Assembly: GCA_008125075.1 (NCBI GenBank)
Contig: VLTH01000003.1
Span: 7,199 to 71,198, forward strand
Direction: 5' to 3'
Length of the DNA stretch: 64,000 nucleotides
Source of the DNA: Acetivibrio alkalicellulosi
GTDB lineage: Bacteria > Bacillota > Clostridia > Acetivibrionales > Acetivibrionaceae
Shown: positions 36,371 through 58,009 of the stretch, in pieces
Numbering within the stretch: the first letter of the stretch is position 1
Layout of the letters: each line of letters begins with the position of its first letter
Translations under genes and position numbers: made by a program
Notes under the pieces: generated by a model
Databases searched by the model: none
What the model was told of the DNA's origin: nothing
The model's input: the letters and a program-made list of their open reading frames with translations, nothing else

Positions 36371-36738
36371 TAGGGTTTAAAAAAAATTGGTGATTTTGTT
36401 TAGAGATAGGATAGTATTAAAATCATTTGCATAGTCAGCTTGGAACTGATTATTTTCAAAAAATAGTATTTATCTATGATGAAGTTTGGCATGATTTATA
36501 ACAGTATATATTTTGTAGATATATTTCAACAAAATACATGAAAATTTTTAAAGATTCAAGTTTATTTTATAAAATTTTCAAATTTATCTTGACAAATTAA
36601 TCCATAGTTATATAATATTATTAATACTTGTTCTCCAATATAAAACATATATATTCATTATTTTGCAATTATGTAAACTAATTACCATGCTACATGCTCA
36701 TAAGAGAAACAGGTAAAAAAAACAAAGGAGATGGGGAA
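36371..36738. other. Intergenic region before the giant subtilase
   Basis: No gene is visible. A possible plus-strand promoter, CTTGACAAATT at about 36591-36601 followed by TATAATATT near 36612, would serve the protease gene and leave a leader of about 115 bases. Confidence 0.45.
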
Positions 36739-39700
36739 ATGAAAAAGAAGAGGTCAAAGTTTTTAACAACAGTATCAATTATTACGGCACTACTATTGGT
36801 ATCAACACAAAGCATTTTTGCCAGCACAGCTTTAGTAACATCTAGTAATCAGACACAAAATAATTTATTTAGCAGATCAGAGCAAGCAATTTTCTTCACA
36901 AGAAAAGACGGAGTAACCCAGTATTTTAAGCCCAATCAACTAAATGATATGATGACTGTAAATGATAGTCAGTCAACTTTCAAAGCTTCCAGCAATGAAG
37001 ATTCAGACACCCCAAACATCCGAAAAAGTGAACTTAAAGGTCAGTCAGATGAATACAAGAACAACAATCAAGAATCTATCGAAGTTAACAAAAACAAGAC
37101 TAGTAGAAGAAAATTAATGTCAAAAGATGAGAATACACTTATGGTAGAGCATGCTCCTGGAGAATTAATAATAAAATTTACAGATGATGTTCAGGAAAAT
37201 GCAAAAGCTTCGTTAATGGGACAAAATAATCTAAGGTCTATAAAAAAACTAAGTTCCATAAGTGCGGAACTGGTATCAATACCAGATAATGTAGATATTG
37301 ATACATTTATATCAACATTAAGTTCAGACCCAAGAATAGAATATGCAGAAAAGAACTACGTGTATTATCCTCTAAACGCTCTTCCAGATCCATTAAGTGG
37401 AGAATTATGGGGGTTGCATAATGTAGGACAGGAAATTTTGGGAGTTCCAGGTGTGCCAGGTATTGATATTAATGTTTTAAATGCTTGGGAATTTACTCAA
37501 GGCTCAGACGAAGTAGTTGTAGCAGTTATAGATACAGGTATCGATATTAATCATACTGATTTAATTGATAGAATTTGGGTAAATCCTGGTGAAACTTTAG
37601 ATGGGACAGATAGTGATGGAAATGGCTACATAGATGACATTCATGGATGGGATTTTTATAATTATAATAACTCAGTTTTTAATTCAGAAGATGGTGATGA
37701 ACATGGTACACATGTTGCTGGTACCATAGCTGCTAGTCTTAACGATTTAGGTATAGTTGGAGTAGCTCCTAATGTAAAAATAATGCCACTTAAATTTTTA
37801 GGACCATTTGGTGGTTTTACAAGTGATGCAATATTAGCTATAGAATATGCTTCAAATATGGGAGTTAAAATTTCAAATAACAGTTGGGGTGGAGGAGGTT
37901 ACTCCCATGCCCTAAAAGAAGCAATAGAAAACTCTGGTATGCTATTTGTTGCAGCTACAGGAAACTGGGGAGAAAACGCAGATATTTACCCTATGTATCC
38001 AGCAGCCTATGATTGTCCAAACATAATATCAGTAGCAGCTATAGACAATCGTGGTGAACTTGCATTTTTTTCAAATTACGGCCAAGAGTCAGTTCATTTA
38101 GCAGCTCCTGGTTTAGATGTATATAGTACAATTCCATCAAGACCAGAAATGGGAGCAGCTATACAAAGCGATACAGGCGTATACAAAACATTGTTTAAAG
38201 GATTTGGATTAGAAATTGTAGATAACGATGAGTCAAGAATACAAATGATAGAAAGTTCAATGGAGTTTTTCGGTGTTGATCATGAAAGCTCAATATTGAT
38301 TGTTCAAGATGACGCAAGTGATAGTGGTCTTAGAAATGTATTAAGTTATTATGAAGATCCTATAAAGCAATTAGGGTATGAAAACATAGAAGTACATAAA
38401 GTACCAACTGATTTAAATGGACCTGATTTAGAAAAACTATTACAATTTGATTTAGTTGTATGGTTTACAGGTGAACATTGGGGGTATTATGATACAACAA
38501 TAACCTATCAGGATCAAATGAATCTTATTAATTATTTAGATCAAGGTGGAAAGCTATATCTATCAGGAAGAGATGCAGGTTTTGCAATTGAACATACAGA
38601 GTTTTACAGGTTTTATCTGAATGCTGAGTTTCTAGGAGAAACGGATAATTTAGATTTAGTAGTTGGAAATGAAGGAACAGTATTTGAGGATCAAGTATAT
38701 AACTTACTTCCATGTATTTGGATGGATTATTTAGCTCCTTCAAATGATAATGGAGAAGTAGCATTAGTTTATCCGGGAGATCCTTTATATGAAAGAGCAT
38801 ATGCTCATTATAGTGGTACTTCTATGGCAGCACCCCATGTAGCAGGTGTGGCTGCATTACTTATGAGTAATGGAACGGAAGAACCTTTTCATATGAAAAC
38901 TAAAATTATACGTAGTGCTACTCCTTTACCGAGCTTAGATGGTAAGGTGTTTAGCGGTGGTATGTTAAACGCAGAAGCAGCTTTGATGATGGATGATATT
39001 AAACTGATTGATGATATACCTGGAGTTCCGCTATTAGAAGTTAACGAAGGATATCTTCACTACTTAGAAGACAAAGATGATGTATACAATGTAAACTTAG
39101 AACTAGGAGATACAATTCAGATCTATTTAACAGCAGATGAAGGAACAGACTTTGATTTACATATATATTCTCCTTCTACTAGAACAGTTAAAAGTGGAGC
39201 AGGATTGTTAGTTTCTTCTGAAAATGAAGGTAGCAATGAATACATAGAATACACTGCAAATCAAAAAGGTAGATTTTTCATTAATGTATATGCTTACAGT
39301 GGAGAAGGGTCATATACTTTAACGTATAATAAATTAGAAGATAGAATAGTGGACGATCGTAACGCTGGTTTAATTTATAGTGGAGACTGGCAAGAAATTG
39401 ACTCAGATGTTCATGAAAATGGTACAGCTAAAGTGCTAAATAGTACTGGAAGTGTACGTTTAAACTTTGCTGGATCAAAAATTACATGGACTGGATTTAA
39501 AGATTCATCACAAGGTGTTGCAAGAGTATTGGTTAATGGAAAGTTTGTTGAAGATGTTAATTTATACTCGTCACAAGCAGAATATAAGCAAGTTCTCTTT
39601 GAAAAAGAACTTCATTATGGAAATCATGAGATTGAAATTAGATGGACAGGGGTAAGTGATCCGGATGCAAGAAAGTCAGCTACTTCTATTAATCTAGATA

Positions 39701-42222
39701 CATTTGTTATTTCATCAGTTAAAACAGTGCCTCAAGCACCAGAAATAATATATGTAGATACATGGCTTAATTTGATTTACTTAGAATTCACAGAAAGTGG
39801 ATATGGAGATGTTTTGTACTACAACATTTACAGATCATTTGATGATGAAAACTATGAGATAATAGATAAAGTTTTGCCATATTCACCTTACTATAATTAC
39901 TATATTGATGAAGCAACAGAAAGTATAGAGCATTTTTATAAAATAACTGCAGTAAATAGCGTTGGTGAGTCAGAATTTTCAAATACAGTAGTTGCTCATC
40001 CAGCAGTAATTAATAGCACATATATACTTGAAGATACAAGTAGACATGTTGAGTATATAGGTGATTGGACTGTTGAGACAAATGATAATTACAGTAATGG
40101 AACAAGGCATGTAACTTTAGAAGTAGGCGCTAAAGTAATGATACCATTTACAGGTCACTATTCAGAGATAAACTTTTGGTCTGGTTCTGATATGGGAATT
40201 GCAAAAGTTTATTTTCCAGGTGAAAATTATGGAAGTACTGAAGTCTATTTAAATGATTATTATGAAGGACTATGGGGATTTGGGATTTACGAAAATGAAA
40301 GAGTTGAGGGCCAGTATTGGATAATAGAGTGTTTATCTGGTAAAATTAATTTTGATTATGCCTACATACAAGATAATACAAATATTGAACCATCAATTCC
40401 TACAGGATTAGAAGGCTCAAGAACAGATAATACAGTAGAATTAGAATGGAATCACAATCCTGAAGTAGATTTGATGGGATATAATGTATGGAGAAGGGCC
40501 GCTAACGAAAATGATTACACAATGATAGCTTTCGTAGAGGATAACCAATACAAAGATACTACAATTCAGTCAGGCACATACTATTATGCCTTAACTTCTG
40601 TAAATTATGCAGGTCTTGAATCAGATTATACTGATGAGGTGGAAATTGTTGGAAAAACAATTTTGAAAGCAGGATACTATGAAGAAAATGCAAAAGGAAT
40701 AACTTATCATGGAGATTGGGTAGTTCATTCCTTCCGTAATCATAGCGGTGGTACCATGAAATATTCTCAGGATACAGCAGCTTATGTAGAGTTTGAGTTT
40801 GAAGGAACTGGAATCAAATGGGTTAGTAATACCCGTGAAAATCGAGGAATTGCAAAAGTAACTATTAATGATGGTGAACCAGAGTACATTGACCTTTATA
40901 GTCCTACTAATGATCATCAAGTAGTAGTTTATGATAAACAAGGTTTATCATCTGGAGTTCATAGGGTGAAAATTGAAGTTACTGGAACTAAAAACTCAGA
41001 ATCTAATAATATAAGGGTAAGTGTAGATTCCTTTGTTGTATATAATATACCTGCATATAGTAAAATAATTGAAGAAGATTCAAACCAAGTTCAATATTAT
41101 GGCGATTGGGTAGTTAATTCAAACCCTAATCATAGTGGTAGTTCCATGAAATATACTCAAGACACAGGAGCTTATGTAGAATTTGAGTTTGAGGGGACTG
41201 GTATTGAATGGGTTAGTACTGCACGTGAAAATCGAGGAATTGCAAAAGTAACTATTAATGATGGCGAGCCAGTATACATTGACCTTTATAGCCCAACTAT
41301 TAAATATCAGGAAGTAGTCTATAATATACAAGGCTTATCACCTGGAGTTCATACAATAAAAATTGAGGCAACTGGTACTAAAAACCCAGCCTCTAATAAT
41401 ATCAGGATAAGTCTTGATGCCTTTATTGTAAGTAATGTACCTGCATATGGCACAATACTTGAAGAAGATTCAGAGCAAATAAAATATTATGGAAACTGGG
41501 TAGTGCATAACCATTCTTCTCATAGCGGTGGTACCATGAGATATTCTCAAGATACAGGAGCTTATGTTGAGTTTGAGTTTGAAGGAACTGGAGTTAAATG
41601 GGTTGGCAATCCCCGTGAAAATCGAGGAATTGCAAAGGTAATTATTAATGATGGTGAACCAGAGTATATTGACCTTTATAGCCCTACTAATGATTATCAA
41701 GTAGTAGTTTATGATATACAAGGCTTGTCACCTGGAGTTCATACAATGAAAATTGAGGTTACCGGTACTAAAAATCCAGAATCTAATAATGTAAGGGTAA
41801 GTGTAGATGCCTTTGTTGTTAGTAATATACCGGCATATATTACAATAATTGAAGAAGACTCAAATAAAATTCAATTTAACAAAAATTGGGTAACTCATTC
41901 CAATCCTAAGCATAGCGGAGGTACCATGAGGTATTCTCAAGATACAGGAGCGTATGTTGAGTTTGAGTTTGAAGGAACTGGAATTAAATGGATTAGCAAT
42001 CCTCGTGAAAATCGAGGAATTGCAAAAGTGATTATTAATGACAGTGAACCAGTGTACATTGATCTTTATAGACCAACTAATGATCACCAGGTAGTAGTTT
42101 ATAATATACAAGGCTTATCACCTGGAGTTCATTCAATAAAAATTGAGGTAACTGGAACTAAAAACCCAGCTTCTAGTAATACTAGAGTAAGCGTTGATGC
42201 CTTTTTAGTATCACAATATTAA
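36739..42222 (+). CDS. Giant secreted subtilisin-like protease (S8) with inserted domain and C-terminal repeats
   Basis: 1827 residues from ATG 36739 (AAAGGAGATGGGGAA upstream). A signal peptide (1-30) and a propeptide (about 135-215) precede an S8 domain with Asp265 in AVIDTGID, His322 in EHGTHVAG and Ser695 in YSGTSMAAPHVAG. Between the oxyanion region (AATGN, about 408) and Ser695 lie some 220 extra residues containing a Rossmann-like domain (ILIVQDDASDSG, FDLVVWFTG, KLYLSGRDAG). A pre-peptidase C-terminal domain (about 777-865), beta-sandwich repeats, two fibronectin type III domains (about 1000-1085 and 1220-1300) and four 130-residue repeats (1315-1827) follow. It has no SLH or LPXTG anchor, so it is probably released or held by its repeats. 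Confidence 0.9.
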   Translation: MKKKRSKFLTTVSIITALLLVSTQSIFASTALVTSSNQTQNNLFSRSEQAIFFTRKDGVTQYFKPNQLNDMMTVNDSQSTFKASSNEDSDTPNIRKSELKGQSDEYKNNNQESIEVNKNKTSRRKLMSKDENTLMVEHAPGELIIKFTDDVQENAKASLMGQNNLRSIKKLSSISAELVSIPDNVDIDTFISTLSSDPRIEYAEKNYVYYPLNALPDPLSGELWGLHNVGQEILGVPGVPGIDINVLNAWEFTQGSDEVVVAVIDTGIDINHTDLIDRIWVNPGETLDGTDSDGNGYIDDIHGWDFYNYNNSVFNSEDGDEHGTHVAGTIAASLNDLGIVGVAPNVKIMPLKFLGPFGGFTSDAILAIEYASNMGVKISNNSWGGGGYSHALKEAIENSGMLFVAATGNWGENADIYPMYPAAYDCPNIISVAAIDNRGELAFFSNYGQESVHLAAPGLDVYSTIPSRPEMGAAIQSDTGVYKTLFKGFGLEIVDNDESRIQMIESSMEFFGVDHESSILIVQDDASDSGLRNVLSYYEDPIKQLGYENIEVHKVPTDLNGPDLEKLLQFDLVVWFTGEHWGYYDTTITYQDQMNLINYLDQGGKLYLSGRDAGFAIEHTEFYRFYLNAEFLGETDNLDLVVGNEGTVFEDQVYNLLPCIWMDYLAPSNDNGEVALVYPGDPLYERAYAHYSGTSMAAPHVAGVAALLMSNGTEEPFHMKTKIIRSATPLPSLDGKVFSGGMLNAEAALMMDDIKLIDDIPGVPLLEVNEGYLHYLEDKDDVYNVNLELGDTIQIYLTADEGTDFDLHIYSPSTRTVKSGAGLLVSSENEGSNEYIEYTANQKGRFFINVYAYSGEGSYTLTYNKLEDRIVDDRNAGLIYSGDWQEIDSDVHENGTAKVLNSTGSVRLNFAGSKITWTGFKDSSQGVARVLVNGKFVEDVNLYSSQAEYKQVLFEKELHYGNHEIEIRWTGVSDPDARKSATSINLDTFVISSVKTVPQAPEIIYVDTWLNLIYLEFTESGYGDVLYYNIYRSFDDENYEIIDKVLPYSPYYNYYIDEATESIEHFYKITAVNSVGESEFSNTVVAHPAVINSTYILEDTSRHVEYIGDWTVETNDNYSNGTRHVTLEVGAKVMIPFTGHYSEINFWSGSDMGIAKVYFPGENYGSTEVYLNDYYEGLWGFGIYENERVEGQYWIIECLSGKINFDYAYIQDNTNIEPSIPTGLEGSRTDNTVELEWNHNPEVDLMGYNVWRRAANENDYTMIAFVEDNQYKDTTIQSGTYYYALTSVNYAGLESDYTDEVEIVGKTILKAGYYEENAKGITYHGDWVVHSFRNHSGGTMKYSQDTAAYVEFEFEGTGIKWVSNTRENRGIAKVTINDGEPEYIDLYSPTNDHQVVVYDKQGLSSGVHRVKIEVTGTKNSESNNIRVSVDSFVVYNIPAYSKIIEEDSNQVQYYGDWVVNSNPNHSGSSMKYTQDTGAYVEFEFEGTGIEWVSTARENRGIAKVTINDGEPVYIDLYSPTIKYQEVVYNIQGLSPGVHTIKIEATGTKNPASNNIRISLDAFIVSNVPAYGTILEEDSEQIKYYGNWVVHNHSSHSGGTMRYSQDTGAYVEFEFEGTGVKWVGNPRENRGIAKVIINDGEPEYIDLYSPTNDYQVVVYDIQGLSPGVHTMKIEVTGTKNPESNNVRVSVDAFVVSNIPAYITIIEEDSNKIQFNKNWVTHSNPKHSGGTMRYSQDTGAYVEFEFEGTGIKWISNPRENRGIAKVIINDSEPVYIDLYRPTNDHQVVVYNIQGLSPGVHSIKIEVTGTKNPASSNTRVSVDAFLVSQY
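40681..42222 (+). repeat. Four tandem 390-bp coding repeats
   Basis: Inside the protease gene, a unit of exactly 390 bases (130 codons) repeats four times, with equivalent points at 40681, 41071, 41461 and 41851. There are no insertions or deletions between copies. Each unit begins near EEDSN, contains HSGGTMKYSQDT, YVEFEFEGTGI, RENRGIAKV and GVHTIKIEVTGTKN, and folds as a beta-sandwich likely to bind carbohydrate or a surface polymer. Nucleotide similarity is high, so the array can expand or shrink by recombination. Confidence 0.9.
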
Positions 42223-52435: not shown

Positions 52436-53623
52436 TTGAAATGGTTAGCCATAATAGTTACTTTGTTTGTTTTATTTCTTTCAGGATGCTGGAGTAGCGA
52501 TGAAATAGATACATTAGCTATTAATATGGTTGTGGGTATAGACAAGTCAGAAAACGGCTTCATTATTTCTCATCAAGTTATAAACCCTCGTGCTATAGCA
52601 GTGGGAGAAAATGCTAGCGAATCCCCTGTTGTGTTATTTGAAGAAGAAGGAGTAGATATAGATGAGACAATATCAAAATTTGTATCTAAATCAGCCAGGA
52701 AAACATTTAATTTACATTTAAGAATGGTTATAATAGGAGAAGAAGTTGCAAAAGATGGTATAAAAGACATAATTGATTACTTTCTTAGAAATAATGAATA
52801 CCGAACAGATTTTTATATAGCTATAGCCAGAAATACTACTGCTAAAGAAATTTTAAAAATATTAACTCCAATAGAAGCAATACCAGGTGTTGATTTGTAT
52901 AATTCACTTGAATTATCAAGTCAAAGGCTGGCTTCTACAAAGCCTATGAGAATTATTGAATTAGCTAATACTATAATTTCTGAAGGGAACAATCCTGTTA
53001 TATCAGGAATTACAATGGATTACAAGGGAGATATCATACCTGATTCTTTAGAAGAACTTCAAAAAAGCAAGAACATAATAAAATTAGTTTATTCTGGCAT
53101 GGGCATTTTGAAAGAAGACAAGCTTATTGGTTGGTTAAGTGACACAGAAGCAAGGGGAGTTAACTACATTACAGGCAATGTAGTCAGATCAGTTGGACAT
53201 TCCTATTATAAAGATGACATTAAAATCACTTATGAAGTTATAAAATCAGATTCAAAGATAACAGCTAGATTGATTGACGATAAACCTGTAATAAAAGTTA
53301 AGATTAATGTTTTAGCTAATGTTACAAATGTAACTGGTGAATTAGATGTATCAGATATGAATAATACAAAAATTTTAAGTGAAGTTTTAGAAAATAGACT
53401 TAGACAAATTTGTGAGGATACTTTGAGTAAAGTTCAACGTGAATTCAAAACAGATATTTTTGGATTTGGGGATACTATATACAGAAAACACCCTAAACTC
53501 TGGAGAGAGCTGAAAAGTGACTGGGCATCTGAATTTTCAAAATTGGATGTTAATATTGATATTATTGTTAAAATAAATCAATTAGGGGAAATTACAAAAC
53601 CTATATTCATGAAAGGAGATTAA
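52436..53623 (+). CDS. Spore germinant receptor subunit C (Ger(x)C lipoprotein)
   Basis: 395 residues from a TTG start with ATGGAGTGA upstream. The signal peptide ends in LFLSGCWSSDEIDTLAINMV, a lipobox followed by the hallmark GerC start. Three domains typical of Ger(x)C follow, with FVSKSARKTFNLHLRMVIIG and FLRNNEYRTDFYIA in the first and YRKHPKLWRELKSDW near the C-terminus. It sits on the outer face of the spore inner membrane. It is spaced normally after gerA and is followed 1 base later by the small D subunit gene. Confidence 0.94.
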   Translation: MKWLAIIVTLFVLFLSGCWSSDEIDTLAINMVVGIDKSENGFIISHQVINPRAIAVGENASESPVVLFEEEGVDIDETISKFVSKSARKTFNLHLRMVIIGEEVAKDGIKDIIDYFLRNNEYRTDFYIAIARNTTAKEILKILTPIEAIPGVDLYNSLELSSQRLASTKPMRIIELANTIISEGNNPVISGITMDYKGDIIPDSLEELQKSKNIIKLVYSGMGILKEDKLIGWLSDTEARGVNYITGNVVRSVGHSYYKDDIKITYEVIKSDSKITARLIDDKPVIKVKINVLANVTNVTGELDVSDMNNTKILSEVLENRLRQICEDTLSKVQREFKTDIFGFGDTIYRKHPKLWRELKSDWASEFSKLDVNIDIIVKINQLGEITKPIFMKGD

Positions 53624-53624
53624 T

Positions 53625-53864
53625 ATGCCTGTACTGCTTATTACAGTAACTCTATTATTTAATACCACATTATGTATCGTTGAAATCCCAAAAATGATTG
53701 AAAAAAAACTCTTTAAGGAACTATATGTTTTTGGCATATTTGTATTTTTAGGTACATTACTTGCAATACTTAAAAGTGTTGATGTCAATATACCAAATCC
53801 ATCTGAGTGGATAGCGTGGATATATTCTCCTGTCGCAGATGTTTTTAAATCAATGTTGGAATGA
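53625..53864 (+). CDS. Small germinant receptor D-type subunit
   Basis: 79 residues with two membrane helices (about 2-20 and 33-50) and a hydrophilic C-terminus (SVDVNIPNPSEWIAWIYSPV). Size, topology and location inside a ger operon fit the small D subunits described for several Bacillus and Clostridium germinant receptors, which tune receptor function. GAAAGGAG lies upstream, within the end of gerC. Its stop lies about 10 bases before the gerB start. Confidence 0.75.
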   Translation: MPVLLITVTLLFNTTLCIVEIPKMIEKKLFKELYVFGIFVFLGTLLAILKSVDVNIPNPSEWIAWIYSPVADVFKSMLE

Positions 53865-53874
53865 GGATAAAGCT

Positions 53875-54972
53875 ATGGAAATAAAAATAACAAATAATCA
53901 GCTGTTTTCATTGACAGTGTCAACATCAATTGGTGGTTCAATTTTAGTTGTAAGCTCTGTTTTATCAATTATAGCAAAGCAGGATGCATGGATTGTTGGA
54001 TTAGTTACACCTCTAATTGGTGTATTTATAGTACTACTATATTGTTATCTAGGTAGTAAGTTCCCTAATATGACCATTGTAGAAATTATTAAAAAAATAT
54101 TAGGGAAATGGATAGGGAGCATTGTAGCAGCTAGTCTGGTGTTTTTATCCTTTATACTATGTATTAATTTACCCTGGTATGTTAGTAATTTTTTAACTAC
54201 TCATGCCATACCAGAAACTCCACCGTATGCTATAAATTTTCTTTTTGTAGTTGCAGTTGTAATAGCTGTTATATATGGCCTTGAGGCAATTGCCCGTGTT
54301 TCTGAACTAATCTTTTACTTCTCAAGTGTACTATTTATTATAACTATATTACTTTTGATACCTAATATAAAAATAGAGAATATTCAGCCTGTATTAGAGC
54401 ATGGGATTAGACCTGTATTGGAAGGCTCTATATTTTTGTCGGCTTTTATTACTTTTCCGTTAATTAATATTTTGATGGTGTTCCCAAAAAACATATATGA
54501 TATAAAAAAAGCAAGAGCAGCCATTATAAAAGGTTATTTATGTTCTTCTTTCTTTGTATTCATTTTTTTAATTGTGACAATACTTGTGCTTGGGTTTGCA
54601 ATAACAGCATCTTCTCAGTATCCTACATATCTTTTGGGTAAGGAAATTAAAATTGGTAGAGTATTAACCAGATTGGAATTTGTTGTTGCAATTGTATGGT
54701 TCGCAACTCAATTTATAATAAATGTATTTTTCTACTATTCAACACTAATTGGTCTTTCACAACTTATTGGACTTAAGGATTACAAAAAAATAGCAATACC
54801 TTTAGGTTTTATTATTTTTATTATGACAGGAGTAATTTTCCCTAATGTTATATATCAGGGATTTTGGGCAAGTATTGTTTGGACTCCGTACATAGTAACT
54901 CATGGATTAATACTGCCTTTAGTTTTACTTATTGTATATCTAATAAGAAAACATATTTTTAAAAATGTTTAA
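53875..54972 (+). CDS. Spore germinant receptor subunit B (GerB family permease)
   Basis: 365 residues from ATG 53875; an earlier in-frame ATG at 53839 would overlap the D gene and lacks a ribosome site. Ten membrane helices in the amino-acid permease (APC) fold. The start EIKITNNQLFSLTVSTSIGG and the region VGLVTPLIGVFIVLLYCYLG are typical of GerAB. The subunit is thought to bind the germinant. It ends the ger operon; 80 bases later begins the second copy of the 76-base repeat. Confidence 0.93.
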   Translation: MEIKITNNQLFSLTVSTSIGGSILVVSSVLSIIAKQDAWIVGLVTPLIGVFIVLLYCYLGSKFPNMTIVEIIKKILGKWIGSIVAASLVFLSFILCINLPWYVSNFLTTHAIPETPPYAINFLFVVAVVIAVIYGLEAIARVSELIFYFSSVLFIITILLLIPNIKIENIQPVLEHGIRPVLEGSIFLSAFITFPLINILMVFPKNIYDIKKARAAIIKGYLCSSFFVFIFLIVTILVLGFAITASSQYPTYLLGKEIKIGRVLTRLEFVVAIVWFATQFIINVFFYYSTLIGLSQLIGLKDYKKIAIPLGFIIFIMTGVIFPNVIYQGFWASIVWTPYIVTHGLILPLVLLIVYLIRKHIFKNV

Positions 54973-55128: not shown

Positions 55129-55253
55129 ATCATATTTATTAATTGATGAATAAAAGATATAAAAGAAAGTTTTTATTTAATGGAAACTTCTAAAATTTTC
55201 TGTCATATTTCATTTTTTTATGCGTCTAATTAGTGAAAGGAGTGTGAGGTGTT

Positions 55254-55778
55254 ATTTTAATATTTACAATAAATCAAAATGAAAAGCCTGATATTGACTG
55301 GATTATTGATAGATACAGTAAATATTTAGTGCGTTTGTGTTACATATATCTAAAAGACTATCATCTTGCAGAAGATGCAGTTCAAGAAACTCTTTATAAA
55401 GCTTATAAAGGCTATGGTAGTTTTCGAAAGGAAAGCAGTGAGAAAACTTGGATTACAAGAATAGCCATTAATACATGTAAAAGTTATTTGAGAAAATCTT
55501 CAAGCAAGGAGATTGCAGACAGTAATTATATTTCATTAAATTATGCATCTATAAATGAAGATAACAGGAGTTACAGGGATGAAGGATCAATAGAGCTTTT
55601 AAATGCTATTTACAACTTGCCTGTTATATATAAACAGGTAATACTTTTGAATTGTTATACTGGTCTTAGCATTTCTGAAATATCAAAAATAGTTAAGCAA
55701 AAAGAAAATACCATATCAGTGAGGCTAAAAAGAGCAAAAGAAATGCTAAAGAAATCATTAAAGGAGGAAGTGAAGTGA
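55254..55778 (+). CDS. ECF-type RNA polymerase sigma factor
   Basis: Up to 174 residues if translation begins at ATT 55254; the first ordinary start codon in frame is GTG 55329 (149 residues). The upstream reading, INQNEKPDIDWIIDRYSKYL, is just the beginning of region 2 expected before LCYIYLKDYHLAEDAVQETL, and no ATG, GTG or TTG exists in it. GAAAGGAGTGTGAGG lies directly before 55254. Region 2 (YKAYKGYGSFRKESSEKTWI) and region 4 (LPVIYKQVILLNCYTGLSIS, EISKIVKQKENTISVRLKRA) are complete. It overlaps the serpin gene by 4 bases (ATGA-type coupling with GTGAGT), placing the serpin where an anti-sigma factor is normal. Confidence 0.85.
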   Translation: MLIFTINQNEKPDIDWIIDRYSKYLVRLCYIYLKDYHLAEDAVQETLYKAYKGYGSFRKESSEKTWITRIAINTCKSYLRKSSSKEIADSNYISLNYASINEDNRSYRDEGSIELLNAIYNLPVIYKQVILLNCYTGLSISEISKIVKQKENTISVRLKRAKEMLKKSLKEEVK

Positions 55779-57145
55779 GTAAAATTGATAAAATTAAGGA
55801 CATAATTGATGCTAATCTAGAGAAAATGGATATTTCAAATGAAGCAAAAAAAAGACTAAGAGAAAAAGCAGATTATATGGGAAAGAATAAAGTGAAAAAA
55901 AAGTTTAGGATTTTAGGTGTTGTGGCAGCTACAATTATATTGGCTTTGTTGATTACTTTGTATAATTCTAAAGATTTGAACATATATGCTATAGACTTAA
56001 TGGAAAATATTACCCCTAGGGAAATAGAAGCATATAATTTAAGTGATGATTTTATTTTATCTACATTAGATTTTTCCATTGAACTTTTTAAACATGCTTA
56101 TGATAAAGACAAAAACAGCCTTATATCTCCAACATCAGTTTTACTTGCATTAGCAATAACAGCTAATGGAGCTGATGGAGAAACTTTAGAAGAATTTCAA
56201 ACATTACTTGGAGGTTCTGATCTTACACTAGATCAACTTAATAAATACTATTACAGTATGTCAAAAAAGTTAACAAAAGTAGAAATAGGAGAGGTCAATA
56301 TTGCAAATTCCATATGGTACAGTCAGGAATTAGATATTAAAAAAGATTTTCTTCAAACCAATGGGGATTATTATAGTTCAGATGCATATAAAGTAAACTT
56401 TAAGCTACCAGGAATAGATAGGAAAATTAATGATTGGGTAAAAAATAAAACGAAGAACAAAATTGATAAAATAGTTGATGAAATTAATCCAGATACTATT
56501 ATGCATATTATTAATGCTATTTATTTCAAGTCAGAGTGGAAAGACAAGTATATGGTTCGTAACACCAAAAAAGAAGATTTTTATGTTGATAACAATAAAA
56601 CTATATCAGTAGATTTTATGTCCTCAAATGAGTATACATATTTAAAAGATAATATGGCCCAGGGGTTTATGAAGCTTTACAAATATGGAGAATACAGTTT
56701 TGTTGCTCTTTTGCCTGATGAAGGTATAAGCATTGAAAGCTATATTAATTCTATGACAGGGGAAGGTTTTTTGAATATATTAAATAGTAAATTATATGAG
56801 AATGTTTTTGTATCAATTCCGAAATTTAAATTTGAATTTGATACTTGTCTAATTTCTCCACTAATAGAGATGGGATTAAATAAGTGCTTCAGTGAATTAG
56901 CTGGTTTTAGTAAAATGGTGGAAACTCCTGAAGGGATTTTTATAGGGAAAATAAATCACAAGACATTTATTGAAGTTAATGAAGGTGGAACAGAAGCAGC
57001 AGCTTTAACAGACCTTAGGCTTTATGGGGGAGTAAGTATACCTGAATACATTACATTTAATCGTCCTTTTGTATTTGCTATTGTTAATAATGAAACAAAT
57101 CTACCCCTGTTTATAGGAACAATGAATAATCCATCAATGGAATAA
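55775..57145 (+). CDS. Membrane-anchored serpin in anti-sigma-factor position
   Basis: 456 residues from a GTG start overlapping the sigma gene, with AAAGGAGG upstream. A basic, helical N-terminal tail of about 44 residues (MSKIDKIKDIIDANLEKMDI) should be cytoplasmic. One membrane helix follows (about 46-64), then a full serpin domain (about 90-456) outside the cell: NSLISPTSVLLALAITANGA, NAIYFKSEWKDKY, the hinge VNEGGTEAAALTD (about 408-420) and the closing FNRPFVFAIVNNETNLPLFI and GTMNNP. The short Ala-rich hinge suggests an inhibitory serpin able to insert its loop. Anti-sigma action by the tail is inference from gene position and topology. Confidence 0.88.
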   Translation: MSKIDKIKDIIDANLEKMDISNEAKKRLREKADYMGKNKVKKKFRILGVVAATIILALLITLYNSKDLNIYAIDLMENITPREIEAYNLSDDFILSTLDFSIELFKHAYDKDKNSLISPTSVLLALAITANGADGETLEEFQTLLGGSDLTLDQLNKYYYSMSKKLTKVEIGEVNIANSIWYSQELDIKKDFLQTNGDYYSSDAYKVNFKLPGIDRKINDWVKNKTKNKIDKIVDEINPDTIMHIINAIYFKSEWKDKYMVRNTKKEDFYVDNNKTISVDFMSSNEYTYLKDNMAQGFMKLYKYGEYSFVALLPDEGISIESYINSMTGEGFLNILNSKLYENVFVSIPKFKFEFDTCLISPLIEMGLNKCFSELAGFSKMVETPEGIFIGKINHKTFIEVNEGGTEAAALTDLRLYGGVSIPEYITFNRPFVFAIVNNETNLPLFIGTMNNPSME

Positions 57146-57181
57146 AACCTATTTTGTTAAAAAATAAGGAGAATATATTTT

Positions 57182-58009
57182 ATGAAAAATATAAAATTAA
57201 TATTTATTGTTATATTTATTTTTGTTTCATCTTTATCATTTAGTGTAAATGCTAAAGATGATATACCTAAAGAGGTATACAAGGAAGCTCAAGAAGGAGT
57301 AGCAATCTTTAAAGAAATTATAACAGGATTATATGAAGGCAAAGAAATAGCAATTGACTATGGTTATAAAGTTTTCGGCTTAGACTATGTATTGTTACGT
57401 GATAATAAGTATGAAAATATTATGGATCTCATAGTAGAAATTGATAAGTGGGAATTTATACTTTCAACTAACGGAGAAGCAATTGCTTCTTTAGTTGTAA
57501 CAAAAAATGATGGTAAGTATTCAGCTGTAGAATTTTGTGAGAGTATAACTAATTTAAATATAATATACCAGAGAAAAGTTCAAGATGAAAGGGTTAAAAA
57601 CCTTATTGTTATAGAAGATGGTTCAAGTAGTTATATTTTATACGAAACTTCTTCTAAGGAATATGAGTTAATTGGTAATCGTCAAGGGCCTATAAAGAGC
57701 GATATTTTTTTAAATGATATTAAAGAAAGAATATATAGTTTAAACAATGAGTTAATTAAAAGAACTGGAGTGTTCTCTCATGAGTATGATATTAATGGTC
57801 AAGGGTCTATAAAAAGCGATATTTTTTTAAATGATATTAAAGAAAGAATGTATAGTTTAAATAATGATTTAATTGAAAGAACTGGAGTGTCCTCTTATGA
57901 ATATGATAGTAATGAAAGTAGCAATTATTACTTTTTAATTGCTATAGGGGTGTTAATTGTTTTTCTTAGTTTTATAATATTCTATTTAAAAAAAATAAAG
58001 AAAACATAA
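57182..58009 (+). CDS. Secreted single-pass membrane protein with internal duplication
   Basis: 275 residues. A signal peptide (1-24) precedes an unassigned extracellular domain (about 25-165; DIPKEVYKEAQEGVAIFKEI, YGYKVFGLDYVLL, AIASLVVTKNDGKYSAVEF). Two copies of a 39-residue unit (about 168-245) follow, each containing IKSDIFLNDIKER, YSLNN and RTGV, then one C-terminal membrane helix (about 250-270) and a short basic tail. AATAAGGAGAATA precedes the ATG. It lies 36 bases after the serpin gene with no terminator and is probably the third gene of the sigma/serpin operon. Family not recognised. Confidence 0.75.
   Translation: MKNIKLIFIVIFIFVSSLSFSVNAKDDIPKEVYKEAQEGVAIFKEIITGLYEGKEIAIDYGYKVFGLDYVLLRDNKYENIMDLIVEIDKWEFILSTNGEAIASLVVTKNDGKYSAVEFCESITNLNIIYQRKVQDERVKNLIVIEDGSSSYILYETSSKEYELIGNRQGPIKSDIFLNDIKERIYSLNNELIKRTGVFSHEYDINGQGSIKSDIFLNDIKERMYSLNNDLIERTGVSSYEYDSNESSNYYFLIAIGVLIVFLSFIIFYLKKIKKT
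57683..57916 (+). repeat. Tandem 117-bp coding duplication
   Basis: 57683-57799 and 57800-57916 are two adjacent copies of a 117-base (39-codon) unit with only scattered base differences and no indels. They encode the paired IKSDIFLNDIKER segments of the membrane protein. The high identity points to a recent duplication. Confidence 0.9.

Follow-up and report, generated by a model that had tools for sequence, protein, structure and literature searches.

An ECF sigma factor gene of Acetivibrio alkalicellulosi overlaps a gene for a putative membrane-bound anti-sigma factor with a complete serpin as its outside domain, and the genome carries this arrangement twice. The first pair lies in the window, the 64,000-nucleotide stretch of contig VLTH01000003.1 that was analyzed (Table 1). 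That a serpin stands here in the place of an anti-sigma sensor domain was the core of the original prediction, and sequence comparison largely supports it: the tails encoded 3' of the closest related sigma genes are homologous to the tail of the serpin protein.

The serpin gene begins with GTG at 55775 and the sigma gene stops at 55778, giving an overlap of 4 bases. The tail of the encoded protein is basic (15 K/R versus 8 D/E in residues 1-46), which suggests an orientation with one membrane helix and the serpin outside. The PF00079 match spans profile positions 4-370 of 370, showing that the serpin domain (serpin, MEROPS I4) is complete, and it was the only Pfam match of the protein; DUF4179 (and DUF3298) were absent. 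The hinge, E-G-G-T-E-A-A-A-L-T, corresponds to residues 403-412. The gene overlap, the basic tail, the single helix, the complete serpin and the Ala-rich hinge had all been read from the sequence beforehand; the Pfam match, the hydropathy profile and the hinge residues confirm this layout, and the overlap recurs in the second copy.

Table 1. Features of the sigma-serpin locus (positions in the window)
Feature	Position	Strand	Evidence or remark
Predicted autoregulatory promoter: TGTCATATTTC, 11 bases, CGTCTAATTAG (ECF-type -35, -10)	55201..55233	+	Sequence prediction
Shine-Dalgarno AAAGGAG of the sigma gene	55236..55242	+	Read from sequence; identical in second copy
ECF sigma factor gene	55254..55778	+	Pfam Sigma70_r2 and r4_2; start codon ambiguous
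Putative anti-sigma factor with serpin as outside domain, 456 aa	55775..57145	+	
Predicted cytoplasmic anti-sigma tail, residues 1-45, motif IKxxIDxxL.....S...K..(I/L)	55775..55909	+	hhalign
Membrane helix, residues 46-63	55910..55963	+	Hydropathy peak 2.49 over residues 44-62
Linker matching tengpin arm (YAIDLMENI), residues 64-97	55964..56065	+	Alignment to 2PEE
Serpin domain, residues 98-453	56066..57133	+	PF00079, 314 bits; tengpin 2PEF, E 4.5e-87
Hinge and reactive loop, EGGTEAAALTDLRLYGGVSIPEYITF	56981..57058	+	Hinge conserved in second copy, loop tip diverged
Downstream gene, secreted, with C-terminal membrane anchor, probably co-transcribed	57182..58009	+	36 bases after serpin gene

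The 5.3-Mb genome (3 contigs) encodes six serpins. The second pair, at G000:C1:31833-33182, repeats the whole arrangement, again with a 4-base overlap. The two copies share 73% identity in the sigma factor and 57% in the tail-helix-serpin protein, and dN/dS between them is about 0.19 for sigma and about 0.28 for the serpin part (NG86), indicating that both have been kept under purifying selection for function. Since the arrangement occurs twice and both of its genes are under such selection, it is not a product of chance. Three of the remaining serpins have dockerin-like repeats before the serpin domain, and one is lipoprotein-like. The former resemble cellulosomal dockerin serpins and differ from the paired serpins in having neither the tail nor a sigma gene. 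Downstream of the second pair (L007, 7678-8319), a secreted 213-residue protein contains the stretches FSGHASS and GGCRTA, which possibly form a protease-like His-Cys pair; its only Pfam match was a weak one to DUF6345. Elsewhere in the genome, an ECF sigma gene and its downstream membrane gene are tandemly duplicated (L094 and L095; G000:C1:230313 and 231623), with a mobile element-like ORF close by.

In other Clostridia, the closest sigma genes are mostly followed by a gene for a one-pass membrane protein, usually overlapping. The outside domains of these proteins are unrelated to each other (DUF4179, leucine-rich repeats and unnamed domains), and their tails share the pattern IKxxIDxxL.....S...K..I with the serpin protein. 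We built an HMM from 18 such tails, leaving out the serpin proteins, and used 2826 ORF starts and 2000 shuffles as background. It detected the window tail with an E value of 1.9e-7 and that of the second copy with 5e-5; the other matches better than 0.01 were likewise encoded 3' of sigma genes, except for one shuffle (0.0069). Profile-profile comparison by hhalign with 14 tails of non-serpin anti-sigma genes, which are presumed anti-sigmas by position and partly by DUF4179, gave 95.4% and an E value of 1.8e-8. When the cytoplasmic tail was compared without the membrane helix, the score was 28.5, and 1000 column shuffles reached at most 19.2. As a single sequence without the helix, the window tail scored 19.9 bits against 15.7 for the highest-scoring of about 10,000 shuffles, and that of the second copy scored a nonsignificant 6.9 bits. 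A search of PDB and Pfam with the tail family retrieved no solved anti-sigma structure and no family that names the tail. An AlphaFold model built without an alignment was set aside (pLDDT 31.4). No separate anti-sigma gene adjoins the sigma gene at either locus. Because the tail is homologous to those encoded after related sigmas, the serpin occupies the position usually taken by an anti-sigma sensor.

In the sigma tree, the two serpin-linked sigmas are sisters (support 100/99). Together with 22 related sigmas they form a 24-row group, which includes cases with DUF4179 and leucine-rich repeats and whose support (93/91) falls short of what the tree requires of a firm branch. None of this genome's other sigmas fell inside the group.

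Anti-sigma factors swap sensor domains. DUF4179 occurs in anti-sigma factors including RsiV (PMC6066255). RsiV shows that ligand binding can open an anti-sigma factor to attack by signal peptidase (PMC4183432, PMC6066255). The window protein is like RsiV, the lysozyme receptor of the sigma V system (ECF30), and like other DUF4179 anti-sigmas in being a one-pass protein with an outside sensor and an adjoining ECF sigma gene, and the sigma group of the window pair also contains DUF4179 members. However, its outside domain is a serpin, and its signal is presumably a protease rather than lysozyme. Lacking DUF4179, it is not a member of the RsiV family, although it may work like RsiV. A second parallel is offered by the SigI/RsgI systems of Clostridium thermocellum, in which a conserved anti-sigma module carries exchangeable, polysaccharide-responsive outside sensors (PMC3990059, PMC12203970). 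Here too, a swappable outside sensor sits on an anti-sigma module in a cellulosome bacterium, a likeness of layout. SigI does not belong to the ECF sigma factors. In the open-access literature, a scope that leaves out most subscription journals, we found no report of a serpin as the sensor domain of an anti-sigma factor, and papers mentioning both serpins and anti-sigma factors drew no link between the two in their titles and abstracts.

Among solved structures, the serpin body is closest to those of tengpin, 2PEF and 2PEE (E about 1e-87). Features of inhibitory serpins were present, namely Glu at P17, Gly-Thr at P15-P14, small residues at P12-P10, and the shutter and breach. Across the eight serpins aligned, the residues which we take to be the hinge, breach and shutter positions were intact. 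By its hinge and core positions, the serpin looks able to act as an inhibitor. The hinge reads EGGTEAAALT in the window versus ENGTKASAAT in the second copy, and the loop tip has diverged. Such diverged tips next to a kept hinge are expected if the two copies face different proteases.

The linker between helix and serpin aligns to 2PEE from residue 2 on, a segment that is missing in the truncated construct 2PEF, and the protein has the tengpin-type N-terminal arm with an LM-x-x-I motif before the serpin body. In tengpin, this arm attaches to a patch close to strand s1A and keeps the protein in its native state (PMC8233489, PMC12702362). The pattern A-x-(D/N)LM-x-(G/N)-I is common to lipoprotein serpins of other Clostridia, where it stands behind a lipoprotein-like signal. 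Thus, the window protein shares with tengpin and the tengpin-type lipoprotein serpins a serpin body and an arm of the native state-holding kind, whereas a predicted sigma-binding-type tail and a membrane helix replace the lipoprotein-like signal.

We consider it somewhat probable that the protein is a membrane anti-sigma factor with a serpin sensor, so that a protease consumes the serpin, sigma is freed and the serpin is replaced. At rest, the tail would hold sigma at the membrane. An extracellular protease attacking the reactive loop would cause loop insertion, leaving the serpin spent; loop cleavage is a plausible signal. Since the membrane linker corresponds to the arm that stabilizes the native state in tengpin, the arm should come loose once the serpin is spent, and the linker could then become exposed to a site-1 protease. 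As in RsiV, signal peptidase would be a candidate for this step, with an I-Y-A motif at residues 70-72 as its site. The motif is weak evidence, because it is common to lipoprotein serpins, in which it would not be a signal-peptidase site. A site-2 protease would then cleave, and sigma would become free as the tail is either degraded or let go; a homologue of this protease is encoded in the genome, as in all control genomes. Free sigma would transcribe its own operon, yielding new sigma and serpin in a replenishment loop.

More tentatively, and at slightly less than an even chance, we propose a serpin as a bacterial signal receptor: its irreversible consumption would be read via arm and helix and would release an ECF sigma that has no obvious targets besides the inhibitor operons, so that spent inhibitor is replaced. 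If true, the bacterium would gain a molecular counter of protease attack, since the shape change of a serpin is single and irreversible, and the loop would explain how the supply of a single-use inhibitor is maintained. It would also offer a signaling role for the conformational arm, which has so far been studied in isolated tengpin alone.

Sigma-serpin linkage was also found beyond this genome. Of the other serpin genes, 89 have 1 kb or more of DNA upstream, and in 7 of these an ECF sigma gene lies there on the same strand, compared with 0.2-0.5 expected from an estimated sigma density. The serpin loci were the ones most similar to the query and hence no random sample. These rows represent about four independent lineages and several different sigma families. 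In most of them, the ECF sigma and a lipoprotein serpin are separated by the gene for a distinct membrane protein, in one case with DUF4367. Two close tengpin relatives follow an ECF sigma gene (L204 in G800, whose row includes the DUF4367 membrane protein, and L200), suggesting that tengpin itself is perhaps under ECF control. The exact fusion of tail and serpin behind a sigma gene was found in none of the other genomes sampled, which numbered 58 for the order, 391 for the class and 398 for the phylum. The serpin query found no relative in a first scan of genome contigs, nor in viral contigs. A lack of conserved pairing in relatives, which the original prediction had named as a refuting result, is therefore borne out in part: among the genomes sampled, the exact fusion was seen in this one only, but it is present there as two old paralogues, and separate sigma/anti-sigma/serpin rows exist elsewhere. 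The fusion could reasonably have arisen when an anti-sigma tail was joined to a serpin under sigma control.

Those rows, the one with the tengpin relative L204 included, bear on a different reading, in which the serpin is output and not sensor: a protective serpin under sigma control would be fused to the tail and helix of the neighboring anti-sigma gene as an anchor to the cell, and the tail would answer some other envelope cue. The rows look ancestral, which would make the serpin a controlled product. We nevertheless regard this as unlikely, because neither copy keeps another outside domain, leaving the serpin as the only outside part able to sense, and because the arm couples the state of the serpin to the membrane linker. 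The two roles are not mutually exclusive. The serpin could also be a passive plug, with any cut in the stalk starting intramembrane proteolysis and loop insertion being irrelevant. In its favor, the linker between helix and serpin has 34 residues, and stalk cutting is a usual site-1 step, but the conserved hinge, breach and shutter, together with a loop tip that differs between the copies while the hinge does not, a pattern to be expected where loop specificity matters, make it improbable. That the tail is something other than an anti-sigma domain, its adjacency and overlap being incidental and the partner of sigma lying elsewhere, is very improbable: although the tail family lacks a structural or Pfam match, the tail is homologous to those of membrane proteins overlapping related sigmas, some of them with DUF4179, the pair exists in two copies, and no other candidate gene adjoins it.

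Returning to the serpin as sensor, the DNA upstream of the two operons is consistent with the proposed replenishment. Both copies have TGTCATATTTC, a spacer of 11 (window) or 12 (second copy) bases, CGTCTAAT and the Shine-Dalgarno stretch, and the flanking upstream DNA differs. The pattern TGTCATATT-N13/14-CGTC was found exactly at two sites in 5.3 Mb, and the reversed control gave none. With the exact motif at these two operons only, the visible regulon consists of the two operons themselves. When up to 3 mismatches were allowed, few extra sites appeared, about as many as with the reversed control, and a wider regulon was rejected for this reason. The shared predicted promoter suggests a self-contained autoregulatory loop. 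The -10 part (GTCTAAT.AGTGAAAGG) is present upstream of most related sigma genes.

In one respect the original description of the locus needs correction. Its layout was accurate, but the window sigma gene (174 codons; Sigma70_r2, 58 bits; r4_2, 37 bits) lacks an in-frame ATG, GTG or TTG upstream of position 55329. Region 2 is kept only with the rare starts ATT (55254) or ATA (55260). Six bases 3' of the Shine-Dalgarno stretch there is a GTG in the wrong frame, which is followed by TAA after three codons (55245-55265). The second-copy sigma has a normal in-frame ATG start. The window gene may have lost a base, use a rare ATT or ATA start, depend on a frameshift (as regulation), be damaged or contain a sequencing error. 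Lacking a canonical start codon, this copy is perhaps weakly expressed, damaged or misread.

The third gene of the window locus encodes a protein with an N-terminal signal-like helix and a C-terminal helix, according to hydropathy; a stretch of about 38 residues is repeated in tandem, the repeats starting at residues 168 and 207. It had been suggested as a partner of the sigma-serpin pair. This was not borne out by conservation: the gene is absent beside the second copy, and 13 other family genomes contain no relative except for one distant ORF of 100 residues (31% identity over 94 residues). That ORF lies 24 bases before the gene for a secreted 412-residue protein (L226, 1582-3146) with the stretch GFLITGHG, which by eye resembles the active site of a trypsin-fold protease; the protein had no protease match in Pfam. 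The large secreted subtilase expected near 36739 is present in the window as ORF 36694-42222 (Peptidase_S8, 174 bits).

Other membrane-anchored serpins with a short basic tail were found at L052, L053, L087 and L088. They have a YPKAYAFDD linker, and no sigma gene was detected nearby. L052, L053 and their relatives were considered as members and rejected, since no sigma was detected in the surrounding DNA; they match the tail model at chance level only. In the window, GerA-type spore germination genes (52436-54972) are located directly upstream of the sigma-serpin pair.
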